Below, one piece after another: positions 10,210-44,707 of a stretch of 56,633 bases of DNA. This stretch comes from Lachnospiraceae bacterium (GTDB lineage Bacteria; Bacillota; Clostridia; Lachnospirales; Lachnospiraceae). The notes below the pieces were generated by a model. It had not been told where the DNA came from. It worked only from the letters and a program-made list of their open reading frames with translations, and made no database searches. Numbering within the stretch: the first letter of the stretch is position 1; each line of letters begins with the position of its first letter. Both the position numbers and the translations under genes were made by a program. The stretch is from assembly GCA_022768745.1 (NCBI GenBank), contig JALELK010000005.1:1-56633 (forward strand), written 5' to 3'.

Positions 10210-10776
10210 GGACGGATACCAATGGCTCGAGAGATATATCCTGTCGGCTTTTTGGCGGAGTACTGCCACCGGTAGGGGGACCGGCTTTTATTATATCGGA
10301 GAAAATTTGTAGTATCTCTTAATGCTGATTTTGTTTGAAGAAACTGTCTTTTTACGGCTTCGACTTTTCGCGAAGGATATGTACGCCTATGGCAGATATT
10401 TAGGCAACCGCTTCATAAGAGATTCTAGGAGCTTGGAGCATTCTTTCATCTAATTTGTGGTATCGGCATAAACGCACCATCCAGGTGCGGTTATGCCTCT
10501 CGGGCACATCCATGTACCCTCGTACCGAATAAACAATCCAGCTCTTAGAATCTCTAATTTGCTCTGCAATCATATCTGCCATAGGCGAACATTATCCTAG
10601 CGGTTGTCGAACCTTAAAAAGACAGTTTTAATAGTAAAAGAAAAATCAGCATATTAGAGATACACAAAGGATTCGACATAATAAAAGCCGGTCCCCCTAC
10701 CGGTGGCAGTACTCCGCCAAAAAGCCGACTTTCAACAAAAAAAAATCGAGCCATTGGTATCTGTCCCTATTGGCTC
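10200..10776. repeat. 577-bp giant imperfect palindrome (long-hairpin element)
   Basis: The stretch 10200-10776 folds back on itself almost end to end. The outer 30 nt match at both ends with two mismatches; 10243-10294 and 10678-10729 form a perfect 52-bp inverted repeat; inner arms continue (AAACTGTCTTTTTA, CGCCTATGGCAGATAT, AGAGATTCTA) to an apical hairpin GGCATAA..CGCACC/GGTGCG..TTATGCC at 10466-10498. Each tip is also a small hairpin, GAGCCATT/AATGGCTC. No transposase gene or clear target duplication was seen. It could be a MITE-like element or a locus for a long double-stranded RNA. It begins inside the upstream stop region and ends beside the dehydrogenase operon terminator. Confidence 0.85.
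10400..10582 (-). CDS. Possible 60-residue ORF spanning the palindrome apex
   Basis: The open frame begins with ATGGCAGATATG in one arm, crosses the apical hairpin and stops in the other arm. The product would be a soluble, basic, Arg-rich peptide (MADMIAEQIRDSKSW...), not resembling any family I know. The upstream AGGATAATGTTCGCCT is a poor ribosome binding site. Because palindromes of this size often leave chance frames open, this is listed only as a possibility. Confidence 0.2.
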   Translation of the reverse strand: MADMIAEQIRDSKSWIVYSVRGYMDVPERHNRTWMVRLCRYHKLDERMLQAPRISYEAVA

Positions 10777-22282: not shown

Positions 22283-24955
22283 TCACACTTCTGTGGTGCT
22301 TGTCATTTTCTTATCCTCATAGCGCTTCAAGGCTTCCTCATTAACCCTTTTAACTTCTGCCTCCAGCTCTCTGGCAGAAATACGACGGGCACCATTTCCG
22401 ATTACAATCATCTGTTCCAACCGGTCTGAGGTGGCAACGGTCACCTGATGCTCCTTTGCCATTTTGTGGCTGATTCTCTCAATATAGGCATCTGCCGTCT
22501 CCGCCTCTTTGGTGTACACCACGTGAATATTATGGTACTCCACCACTTCCCTCGTATGTCCCTTTATGCGATAAGCATCAAAAACCACAATCAGCTCCTG
22601 GTCTATATGTCCCTGAAAATTACACATAATATCCAGAAGCCGACCTCTGGCTCCGTCCAGATTGCTTTTTGCAATCTCATTTAACTCATCCCAGGAAAAA
22701 ATAATGTTGTAGCCATCCACCAGAAAATATTTTTTTATATTTTTCTTTTTCTCAGGGGTAGTATGATTGGAACGATATTCCTCTCTGGCCTCCTGAATCC
22801 GACGCTCTCTGTCAAAATCCGTCACCTGTATCTCCTGAGAGGGAAGTCGCCTTTTTATCTCCCCGAATTCCCTGACAAAAATCTCCTCCAGATCGGATTC
22901 CAGCCCACCATAGCCGTCGTACTTTTTAGGCTCTCCCTGTCGATTTGCAAGGGCTCTCGCCTTTGCCAGAGCTATCATTTCCGCCTCATCCGGCTCCTGC
23001 TCCTTTTCATACAGATATGAAGCAAAGGGCATATGCATCTTATCCTCCACTTCGTACCAGGGAACCGTATAACCGGCACCATGCCCGCAAAATACCGAAT
23101 CGCAGGTGTTTTTCACATCCCTGTCCGGGTCATAACCGATTTCTTCTATCACTTCCTCCGGATTGTGACAGGGGAAATAGCCTGCCAGAGATACACTCAT
23201 CTGTCCCCGGCCACCGGAATAGGATGCCAGGGTTGTACCATACTCCCGCAAAAGGGACACCGGTGCCTTTCCTGTGAGAACGGCAGTCTCCCCCTCTGTT
23301 ACAGGGGCATCAAACTCCCCGTGCATCTGGCTCATATCCGTCATGGCCCGACCGATAAGTTCTGCCGGCACTTCAAGACGCACAAAATAATAAGGTTCCA
23401 GCAAAACATTTTTTGCCTTCCGCAATCCCTGGCGCACCGCCCGATAAGTAGCCTGTCGGAAATCGCCTCCCTCTGTGTGCTTTTTATGAGCCTTTCCTGT
23501 CACCACCGTCAACCGCACATCGGTAAGGGGCGAACCGGTAAGCACCCCCCGGTGGGTTTTCTCTGCCAGATGAGTACAAATCAGTCTCTGCCAATTCAAA
23601 TCCAACACGTCTGTGGGGCAATCCATCCCACATTCCACCCCGCTTCCTCTGGGCAGTTCCTCTATCAAAATATGGGCCTCTGCATAATGGCGCAAGGGTT
23701 CAAAATGTCCCACTCCCTCTACTGCCCCTTCAATTGTCTCTTTGTAGCGCACAGCCCCAGGTCCGAAGGTGACCAGAACACCAAAGCGCTTTTTTATCTG
23801 CTGTTGGATAATCTCCGTCTGCACCGGTCCCATAAGATGCACATGAACCTGACGGCTTCCCTCCTGCCAAATTACCTTGAGGGTAGGGTCCTCTTCCTCC
23901 AACTGACGCATATAGCCCAGTAACACATGGGGCGCACACCCCTCCGGGGGTATCACCTGATAGGAGAGCACCGGTTCTATCACATCCACCGAAAGGTCCG
24001 GGCAACTTCCCAACCCCATTCCCGGGTAGGATTCCTGGATTCCGGTAACCCCGCAAATCTCTCCGGCGCTGACCTGGTCAACAGTCTCATATTTGTCCCC
24101 CAAGTAAAGTCGAATCTGGTTGATTTTATTTCCCCCGATAACATCCTTTACCCTTAAGGTTCCTCCGGTGATTTTCAAATAGGTGAGCCGTTCTCCCCGG
24201 ATGTCTCTTCCCACCTTATAGCATCTGGCTCCGAACTCCTCCGGATATGCTTTGGAGGTCATCCACAAATCCATGCTTTCCAACAGTTCTTCTACACCAT
24301 CCATCTTTAAGGCAGAACCAAAAAGTACAGGAAATACCTTCCTCTTTGCAATAGCCGTCCTCAACGTCTCCTGTTTTATCTCTCCCGTCTCCAGATAATG
24401 GGTTAACATTTTCTCATCACAAAGAGCTACCGCCTCTTTTTCATCCTCAGTAGGATTTGCATTTGCCCCTGAAAAATCAGAAAAGTCCACACAGCTGTCG
24501 GAAAGTTTTCCCCTGAGATCTTCCAAAAGATCCGACTTATCCACGAAGCCGATATCCATCTTGTTTACAAACAAAAAACAAGGTACCCCATATTTTTCCA
24601 ACAATTTCCAGAGAGTCCTGGTGTGTCCCTGTACTCCGTCTGTTCCACTGATTACAATAATCCCATAATCTAAAACTGACAGCACCCTCTCCATCTCTGC
24701 TGTAAAATCTGCATGTCCCGGAGTGTCCAAAAGAATAAATTCTTTTTCTTTATAATTCATCCGGGCAGCCTTGGAAAAAATGGTGATTCCTCTCTGCCTC
24801 TCCATCTCATCATTGTCCAACAGGGTATCCCCGTGGTCCACCCGTCCTCTGGAGCGAATGGCACCTGTCTCATAGAGAAGCGCCTCTGATAGAGTTGTCT
24901 TTCCCGCATCCACATGGGCAAGAATACCCAGGGTTATCTTTTTGTTCTGTATCAT
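22283..24955 (-). CDS. Tet(M)-like translational GTPase fused to a Rae1/YacP NYN ribonuclease domain
   Basis: An 890-residue two-part protein. Residues 1 to about 700 are an EF-G paralogue of the ribosomal protection type: AHVDAGKTTLSEALL (G1), RQRGITI (G2), DTPGHADF (G3), NKMD (G4), then EF-G domains II-V. Residues 741-890 match B. subtilis Rae1 (YacP), a ribosome-associated A-site mRNA endonuclease: LVDGYNII (Asp747), IVVFDAY (Asp793), YTKEAETADAYIE (Asp822), VATSD (Asp844) and GARRISARELEAEV. All acidic PIN/NYN positions I can identify are kept. The ATG overlaps the stop of the M15 gene by 4 bp. It is not a typical tetracycline resistance gene, as Tet(M) ends near 640 residues. Confidence 0.88.
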   Translation of the reverse strand: MIQNKKITLGILAHVDAGKTTLSEALLYETGAIRSRGRVDHGDTLLDNDEMERQRGITIFSKAARMNYKEKEFILLDTPGHADFTAEMERVLSVLDYGIIVISGTDGVQGHTRTLWKLLEKYGVPCFLFVNKMDIGFVDKSDLLEDLRGKLSDSCVDFSDFSGANANPTEDEKEAVALCDEKMLTHYLETGEIKQETLRTAIAKRKVFPVLFGSALKMDGVEELLESMDLWMTSKAYPEEFGARCYKVGRDIRGERLTYLKITGGTLRVKDVIGGNKINQIRLYLGDKYETVDQVSAGEICGVTGIQESYPGMGLGSCPDLSVDVIEPVLSYQVIPPEGCAPHVLLGYMRQLEEEDPTLKVIWQEGSRQVHVHLMGPVQTEIIQQQIKKRFGVLVTFGPGAVRYKETIEGAVEGVGHFEPLRHYAEAHILIEELPRGSGVECGMDCPTDVLDLNWQRLICTHLAEKTHRGVLTGSPLTDVRLTVVTGKAHKKHTEGGDFRQATYRAVRQGLRKAKNVLLEPYYFVRLEVPAELIGRAMTDMSQMHGEFDAPVTEGETAVLTGKAPVSLLREYGTTLASYSGGRGQMSVSLAGYFPCHNPEEVIEEIGYDPDRDVKNTCDSVFCGHGAGYTVPWYEVEDKMHMPFASYLYEKEQEPDEAEMIALAKARALANRQGEPKKYDGYGGLESDLEEIFVREFGEIKRRLPSQEIQVTDFDRERRIQEAREEYRSNHTTPEKKKNIKKYFLVDGYNIIFSWDELNEIAKSNLDGARGRLLDIMCNFQGHIDQELIVVFDAYRIKGHTREVVEYHNIHVVYTKEAETADAYIERISHKMAKEHQVTVATSDRLEQMIVIGNGARRISARELEAEVKRVNEEALKRYEDKKMTSTTEV

Positions 24956-25770
24956 TGTTCTGTTCCTTTTTCAAAATGTTGAAAATCCAAGGGACCATTC
25001 CACTCGCCGCCCCATATAAATCCGTGCTTTGTAAAAATCTCATAGCACACATCCCCTTTTTGTATCATATGGGGACGCTGTACCCTGCGATTGCTGTAGG
25101 TTTCCCACTCAAGGTATTTTCTGGCGGGAATCCCCTGCCCGGCCCCTGCCATAGTGGGATTTTCTGTGGGATTAATATCAATGGCATAACCTAAGGCATG
25201 GCTGGAAAGTACGTTTGTCCCATCCACCAACCGATAGTTAAATCCCGATGTATTGTCATTATTAATAGAGTTACAATCGGCAGACTCACCGTCTCCGTCC
25301 TCACCGTAAAATTCATCAATGCGACGCATAGACTTAATCTCATATTCCCGCTGAAACAGTTCTAAAAAAATCTCCCGACAGTCCTGGGCAATCTCCTGAT
25401 TTACCACCAGTTCTCCCACCTGTATCTCATGGTCAAAATTGTAATGAAGAACCTTTAGATACCGTAAGTCCTCTATGGCGATATCAGGGTTATCCCGATA
25501 GGATTTTCCCTGCATATCCTCCGCCATTTCCTGACTGATTTCCTCCACAGTAAAATACCGGTCTATGTGGTCTAAATCCAGTTTGTTCTTTTCCACAACG
25601 GTTCCCGGCTCACACTGTTCCCAGTCAACGTACTGTGTCTGTATGGGCTGTCTCTGTAACACAAGAAACAATACCGCAACCAGAACTATCCCAACAAGGA
25701 GGATGCTTCCAAAAATTATCCTTATTCTTTTTTGACTTTTTCTTTTTCCAAGGGGTTTCTTCTTTTTCAT
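24952..25770 (-). CDS. Peptidase M15-family D,D-carboxypeptidase (VanY-like), membrane-anchored
   Basis: A 272-residue protein with a Lys/Arg-rich N-terminus, one transmembrane segment (IIFGSILLVGIVLVAVLFLVL) and an extracellular M15 domain. Metal ligands and catalytic residues are visible in SSHALGYAIDINP and PLDFQHFE, suggesting cleavage of terminal D-alanine or peptide crosslinks of peptidoglycan. An open frame extends upstream to 25917, but its first 26 codons are simply translated tRNA-Leu, so the start must be at 25770 or 25779. Neither has a normal ribosome binding site; a TATAAT box ends 7 nt before the ATG at 25770. It overlaps the next gene by 4 bp. Confidence 0.83.
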   Translation of the reverse strand: MKKKKPLGKRKSQKRIRIIFGSILLVGIVLVAVLFLVLQRQPIQTQYVDWEQCEPGTVVEKNKLDLDHIDRYFTVEEISQEMAEDMQGKSYRDNPDIAIEDLRYLKVLHYNFDHEIQVGELVVNQEIAQDCREIFLELFQREYEIKSMRRIDEFYGEDGDGESADCNSINNDNTSGFNYRLVDGTNVLSSHALGYAIDINPTENPTMAGAGQGIPARKYLEWETYSNRRVQRPHMIQKGDVCYEIFTKHGFIWGGEWNGPLDFQHFEKGTEQ

Positions 25771-25839
25771 ACTCACCATTATAACATGTCCAAATAAAAC
25801 AAAAAGGACTTTCCTATTCTGGGAAAATCCTCTTCTCGC

Positions 25840-25923
25840 TGCCGCAGACCGGAATCGAACCGGTACGATGTCGCCACCACAGGATTTTAAGTCCTGCGCG
25901 TCTGCCAGTTCCGCCACTGCGGC
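25840..25923 (-). tRNA. tRNA-Leu (anticodon TAA)
   Basis: An 84-nt class II tRNA on the minus strand: acceptor GCCGCAG/CTGCGGC with discriminator A, D arm GGCGGAACTGGCAGAC, anticodon arm CAGGACTTAAAATCCTG (anticodon TAA), a long variable arm and T arm ACCGGTTCGATTCCGGT. CCA is not encoded. It follows tRNA-Tyr by 25 nt; the gap contains the short stem AGCAC/GTGCT. Confidence 0.95.
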
Positions 25924-25948
25924 ATATTATAAGCACTCAACGTGCTAA

Positions 25949-43347: not shown

Positions 43348-44529
43348 TTAAAGATATTTCTTTAATGCATCCACCTTGTCAAGAGCCTCCCAAGGAAGGT
43401 TCAAATCGTTACGTCCAAAGTGTCCGTATGCTGCTGTCTGCTTGTAGATAGGTCTTCTAAGATCTAACATCTTGATGATTCCTGCAGGACGAAGGTCGAA
43501 GTTCTCACGAACAATCTCAACCAACTTCTCCTCAGAAAGCTTTCCTGTACCAAAGGTATCTACCATAATAGATGTAGGCTGTGCTACACCGATGGCATAA
43601 GACAACTGGATTTCACACTTATCAGCCAATCCTGCTGCTACAATGTTCTTTGCAACATAACGAGCTGCATATGCTGCAGAACGGTCAACCTTTGTGCAGT
43701 CCTTACCGGAGAAAGCACCGCCGCCGTGACGAGCCATTCCACCGTATGTATCAACAATAATCTTACGTCCTGTCAAACCTGCATCACCGTGAGGTCCACC
43801 GATAACGAAACGTCCTGTTGGGTTGATAAAGAACTTTGTCTCATCATCAATCATTTCCTGAGGAAGAATTGGGTCAAATACATATTTCTTAATATCCTCA
43901 TGAATCTGCTCCTGAGTAACATCCTCATCATGCTGTGTTGAAAGAACTACGGCCTCTAATCTCTTAGGTGTGTTGTTCTCATCATATTCAACGGATACCT
44001 GTGTCTTTCCGTCTGGTCTTAAGTATGTAAGAGTACCATCCTTACGAACCTTAGTAAGCTGAAAAGCAAGCTTATGTGCAAGAGCGATAGGATAAGGCAT
44101 ATACTCCTCTGTCTCGTTGGTTGCATAACCAAACATCATACCCTGATCGCCGGCACCTGTATCAAGGTCATCTGTCAAATCACCCTTCTTTGCTTCAAGT
44201 GCCTTATCAACACCCATAGCGATATCAGCAGACTGCTGATCCAAAGCAACCATAACTGCACATGAGTTTCCGTCAAGACCTTTCTTTCCATCGTCATAAC
44301 CAATCTCAAGAACGGTATCACGTACGATAGAGGGAATATCCAATTTTGCCTTTGTTGTGATTTCTCCTGTTACCAATACAAATCCTGTACAAGATGCTGT
44401 CTCACAGGCAACACGGCTCATTGGATCCTGTGCCATACATGCATCAAGAATGGCATCAGAAACTGCGTCACATACCTTGTCAGGATGTCCTTCTGTCACT
44501 GATTCTGAAGTGAATAATAATTTTTCCAT
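43348..44529 (-). CDS. metK: S-adenosylmethionine synthetase
   Basis: A 393-residue enzyme making S-adenosylmethionine from methionine and [28 protein letters not shown], the P-loop-like [19 protein letters not shown] and [22 protein letters not shown] are all present. The ATG at 44529 has AAAGGAAG at good spacing; the frame upstream of it lies in the leader. It is controlled by a SAM-I riboswitch and closed by its own terminator, so it is probably monocistronic. Confidence 0.97.
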
Positions 44530-44563
44530 TTTTTCTTCCTTTCTGTTTTGCGTTTTTGCAAAT

Positions 44564-44587
44564 AAAAAAATCCGCCATAGCGGATTC
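44564..44587 (-). terminator. Expression-platform terminator of the metK riboswitch
   Basis: Minus strand: AATCCGC, loop TATG, GCGGATT, then TTTTTT. It lies right behind the SAM-I aptamer and 34 nt before the metK ATG. Confidence 0.88.
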
Positions 44588-44607
44588 AATTGTCAAAGAT
44601 AATCAAA

Positions 44608-44707
44608 TCCCTTATTGTTCGAGTCACTCGCTCAGGTTGGCACCTTCCATTTCGGGGTTGCCGTGGCTTCATCGATCCTTTGTATCTCCACCACTCTGAA
44701 TAAGAGA
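44608..44707 (-). promoter_or_regulatory. SAM-I (S-box) riboswitch aptamer
   Basis: Minus strand: P1 TCTTATTCAGAG ... AATAAGG, then the S-box core GTGGTGGAG, GGATCGATGAAGCC, CGGCAACC, GGTGCCAACCTGAGC. These match the SAM-I consensus. High SAM should favour P1 and the following terminator, switching metK off. Confidence 0.93.

Follow-up and report, generated by a model that had tools for sequence, protein, structure and literature searches.

A translational GTPase fused to a Rae1-type ribonuclease in Clostridia and the apparent replacement of free rae1

In papers that cite work on it (PMC6613710 among them), the ribonuclease Rae1 is described as entering the ribosomal A site and cutting the mRNA there. 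YacP-like NYN domains carried on Tet proteins were reported in 2015 by Atkinson et al. from ten clostridial species, with no function given and RNase-based antibiotic resistance suggested (PMC4342817). Full-text literature searches, with subscription papers mostly outside their coverage, returned no further account of this fusion. The preliminary description of the locus studied here knew of no functional description of such a protein, which still holds, although the fusion itself had already been reported in those ten species.

Gene layout and domain architecture

The analyzed DNA, referred to as the window, is a 56,633-nt stretch of a Lachnospiraceae genome (contig JALELK010000005.1). The gene of interest lies at 22283..24955, as first proposed, and its reading frame runs from an ATG at 24955 to a stop codon ending at 22283, placing it on the minus strand. 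It encodes a protein of 890 amino acids and overlaps by 4 nt (ATGA) with an upstream D-Ala-D-Ala carboxypeptidase-like gene (Peptidase_M15_4; 24952..25776, minus strand). A GTG-start version of the upstream open reading frame (ORF; 24952-25924) reads through a tRNA-Leu (25838-25924), and the true start must therefore lie inside 24952-25924. Elsewhere, the window contains a structured RNA matching the Rfam family TwoAYGGAY (RF01731; 80.9 bits; 10403-10569, minus strand) and a SAM riboswitch (44609-44706, minus strand) upstream of a SAM synthetase-like gene (43348-44589).

The front half of the protein (residues 5 to about 642) is a complete EF-G/EF2-type translational GTPase, with the G domain and domains III to V above their Pfam cut-offs (GTP_EFTU, residues 7-231; EFG_III, 327-398; EFG_IV, 401-515; EFG_C, 517-598) and the GTPase motifs intact. 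Domain II gives a sub-threshold Pfam match (23.4 bits versus a cut-off of 27). The G domain (24263..24937; this and all following features of the gene are on the minus strand) contains the P-loop AHVDAGKT and the switch II motif DTPGH with the catalytic His81. Domain IV (23411..23755) is the best-conserved domain of the protein, and its tip loop, GKAHKKHTEGGDFR, was located at residues 487-500 (23456..23497) by alignment to EF-G and Tet(M). Domain V (23162..23407) is followed by a C-terminal segment characteristic of this GTPase family (residues 596-642; 23030..23170; CHN...SVFCxHGAG...VPWxxV...MH). The conserved Cys596, His597, Cys623, and His625 of this segment form a candidate Zn site. The GTPase portion ends near residue 642, where unfused orthologues stop, and not at about 700 as first proposed; the assignment of an EF-G-like front half stands.

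A variable linker with poor conservation and low pLDDT (residues 646-740; 22736..23020) separates the GTPase from the nuclease. It contains one conserved motif, DLEEIFVREFGEIK, at about residues 686-702 (22850..22900), which overlaps a predicted helix at 686-697. The back half of the protein is a NYN_YacP/Rae1 domain (residues 741-884; 22304..22735), delimited by Pfam, conservation, and alignment to YacP. The Pfam domain search matched NYN_YacP at 745-884 (E value of 2.5e-48; 164.6 bits versus a cut-off of 24.6), in agreement with the full Rae1/YacP domain noted in the preliminary description. The solved protein nearest in sequence to this half, B. subtilis YacP (5mq9), aligns at 744-884. The four aspartates named at the outset, Asp747 (22715-22717), Asp793 (22577-22579), Asp822 (22490-22492), and Asp844 (22424-22426), are exactly placed and invariant in all 81 fusions compared.

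Across these 81 fusions, domain IV is the most conserved domain and the linker, roughly 90 to 170 residues long, the least. In all fusions that include this part of the GTPase, Lys19 is retained, as is His81 with the exception of a single Tyr. In a comparison between congeners, dN amounts to 0.11 to 0.17 in both functional parts, far below the saturated dS; by this measure, both are under purifying selection. One fusion (locus L206, genome G331; GTPase, 7240-5276; NYN, 4954-4550; minus strand) carries a single in-frame stop codon in domain II within a single-contig genome, representing either an error or decay. The AlphaFold2 model of the fusion (mean pLDDT of 87; pTM of 0.69) consists of two confident bodies joined by a disordered linker, so that the relative placement of the bodies is not fixed by the prediction. 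In Foldseek searches, the front of the protein matches EF-G structures.

Distribution, origin, and fate of free rae1

The window's genome contains a single NYN_YacP copy, the fused one, and a genome search of the assembly (88% complete) found no second; the test for a separate yacP proposed in the preliminary description was thus negative. Two of the observations that the preliminary description had named as speaking against its reading, catalytic aspartates lost from orthologues and a separate Rae1, were not seen. NYN_YacP occurs in 124 of 145 related genomes, almost always as one copy, and the ORFs that carry it fall into two size classes of about 170 to 220 and about 850 to 1,040 amino acids. 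At the level of the class, it is present in 250/393 Clostridia genomes, and a fusion-sized ORF, tallied from the table of GTPase-orthologue ORFs as those of at least 780 amino acids, is found in at least 126 of the 393. The fusion was also seen outside Clostridia, within the same phylum. A contig scan yielded 80 loci that proved to be complete fusions on inspection, a set biased by construction to full-length matches. As it is found in dozens of independent genomes, the fusion is not an assembly artefact. No conserved neighbors of the fused genes were found in the 80 loci, and the carboxypeptidase-like gene context of the window is not conserved elsewhere.

In some genomes, the GTPase and Rae1 are encoded as separate, unlinked genes. 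The unfused GTPase orthologues measure 640 to 655 amino acids and terminate where the window protein has residue 641-642, and free Rae1 sequences set in at VDGYN, which suggests that two whole proteins were joined. In the NYN domain tree, the split between fused and free forms needs one change, against a mean of 23 under shuffled labels, although midpoint rooting places three fused sequences next to free ones. The GTPase tree likewise separates fused and unfused members into two clades, with a support of 0.61 for the fused side. Since the two forms separate in both domain trees, a single fusion event would be the simplest reading. The idea that internal translation yields an additional free NYN product was rejected: only GTG codons lie near the junction in the window, and relatives show no convincing pattern.

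The two proteins co-occur in 156 of 162 genomes, mostly through the fusion itself. Among the 20 genomes listed with an unfused GTPase, 14 also have Rae1, a count too confounded by kinship to carry weight. Six genomes encode an unfused GTPase without any Rae1, so the GTPase must also serve a purpose independent of the nuclease, a point against the delivery mechanism proposed below.

Free rae1 typically resides in the gene order cysS-mrnC-rlmB-rae1-sigH (17 to 18 of 20 loci). In the window's genome, the corresponding operon reads cysS-mrnC-rlmB-sigma factor, with rae1 absent and rlmB separated from the sigma gene by 8 nt. Three further fusion-bearing genomes retain a decayed rae1 in the slot between rlmB and sigH: a copy with frameshifts (L202:4695-5011), one with stop codons and a deletion (L203:4766-5014), and a shortened remnant (L204:4828-4920). 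At locus L205, an intact free rae1 exists beside the fusion, and G423 is the only genome with both the fusion and an intact free rae1 among the re-examined genomes with more than one match. With one slot empty, three decayed, and only G423 carrying both intact, it is simplest to assume that free rae1 became redundant through the fused copy and was replaced by it. This replacement history appears to be undescribed in the literature that the searches covered; the existence of the fusion was already known. In genome G195 (locus L207), whose genus includes fusion carriers, rae1 is present solely as a free gene at its usual place, and a GTPase orthologue is absent.

The fused and free nucleases also differ at their C-terminal ends. 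The LEKxRR tail is found in 24/25 free Rae1 proteins versus 8/81 fused ones, and in 37 of the 81 fusions, including the window protein, the whole tail is missing. By alignment, the second arginine of this motif equals B. subtilis R166, and suppressor genetics indicates that Rae1 R166P behaves like a loss-of-function allele (PMC6613710). From this pattern, we infer that the tail may dock or position the free protein, a role that in the fusions may have passed to the GTPase body. Alternatively, the tail loss may be a sign that the fused domain has changed in function relative to free Rae1.

Proposed mechanism and alternative explanations

In EF-G-like factors, the A site is also where domain IV acts, extending in EF-G as far as the decoding centre. 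Domain IV and Rae1 would thus compete for the same site, which suggests that the GTPase and the nuclease act in turn. On balance, we consider it probable that the protein represents a GTPase-delivered Rae1 for stalled ribosomes, generated by a one-time fusion to a clostridial EF-G/Tet-like GTPase, after which free rae1 was replaced. In such a scheme, the GTP-bound body would dock at the translation-factor site of a stalled or slow ribosome with an accessible A site, where domain IV would probe or clear the decoding centre. GTP hydrolysis would then move the body away, allowing the linker-held NYN domain to enter the vacated A site and cut the mRNA, and the cut ribosome would be rescued by tmRNA. 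A tmRNA is present in the window's genome. The scheme presumes that the fusion binds ribosomes, cleaves RNA, and acts in an order set by GTP.

The other explanations differ in what they make of the two halves. The 2015 suggestion, recast as a Tet-type ribosomal protection protein joined to an RNase in a new tetracycline resistance mechanism, starts from the classification of the protein as Tet (PMC4342817). Tet(M) is indeed the closest solved structure by sequence for the front half, and tet_protect (NF012153) is the best NCBIfam model for the fusion. However, the score on this model is 401.7 bits against a cut-off of 775, and family members, fused and unfused alike, range from 402 to 460 bits. 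At the position of Tet(M) Pro509, a residue of the drug site (PMC8161019), the protein has Lys492, next to the invariant His493. The tip loop GxAHxKHTEGGDFR is common to fused and unfused members, and its His490 aligns with EF-G His573. Moreover, ORFs of about 644 amino acids resembling true Tet proteins (about 30% identity) coexist with the fusion in the same genomes (for instance, G009, G019, and G032), and the fusion tree has the look of vertical inheritance, not of mobility. These data make the resistance explanation decidedly improbable. The unfused orthologues make up a separate chromosomal family, and the label "ribosomal-protection-type" initially given to the GTPase is not sustained. 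The protein also falls short of the EF-G model (TIGR00484; 275.5 bits versus a cut-off of 659.4), and a congener encodes EF-G as a separate gene. EF-G was not found in the whole genome of G000 (assembly 88% complete); given its presence in the congener, this probably reflects missing sequence.

It is also conceivable, if rather unlikely, that the linker merely tethers two proteins with separate jobs, the fusion serving to raise Rae1 near ribosomes or to co-regulate both. The long disordered linker of the AlphaFold2 model would suit this arrangement, as would the unlinked genes of the split genomes and the occurrence of the GTPase without Rae1. Nonetheless, the mid-linker motif DxELxxIFxRTYGPxK is present in 70/81 fusions versus 0.5 expected by shuffling, a count made on related sequences that are not independent, and together with the loss of the Rae1 tail it suggests adaptation to the fused state. 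A substrate other than mRNA, namely rRNA or tRNA in maturation or quality control, seems very improbable. It is in keeping with an older prediction for YacP domains cited in the 2015 text (PMC4342817), and with the position of free rae1 beside the rRNA maturation genes rlmB and mrnC. Yet the characterised Rae1, as described in papers citing that work, cuts mRNA in a translation-dependent manner, and its GTPase partner in the fusion belongs to the translocase type.

Building on the GTPase-delivered Rae1, one may further propose, tentatively and with some doubt, that A-site mRNA cleavage is GTP-clocked in much of Clostridia, with the factor sensing or preparing stalled ribosomes and licensing the tethered nuclease, making Rae1 GTPase-dependent. 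If true, Rae1 would have lost its docking tail and with it the ability to act without the GTPase. As to how Rae1 selects ribosomes, the fusion appears to tie it physically to a translation GTPase, and the displacement of free rae1 would provide natural evidence that the two work on the same ribosomes. The fusion also offers a protein whose function can be tested, from bacteria abundant in the gut, and one at risk of being annotated automatically as a tetracycline resistance factor.

Comparison with known systems

The fusion shares with Tet(M) and Tet(O) the EF-G-like five-domain architecture at about 30% identity. It differs from them in lacking the Pro509 loop, in scoring below the curated Tet cut-off, and in carrying a fused RNase, and the segment 596-642 replaces the Tet C terminus. 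With EF-G and its paralogues it has the fold in common, as well as the equivalent of His573 at the tip of domain IV; however, it remains far below the EF-G cut-off, and EF-G is encoded separately in a congener. The proteins of the 2015 report are evidently the same fusion, described there with neither a function nor a replacement history and with no mention of the tail loss or the linker motif in the passages concerned (PMC4342817). Compared with B. subtilis Rae1/YacP (PF05991), the nuclease is the same domain with a full catalytic core and four invariant aspartates, and it is likewise present as one copy per genome in the same clade. In contrast to the free protein, the fused form sits behind a GTPase, has lost the free gene and its place in the operon, and in most cases has lost or altered the LEKxRR tail.
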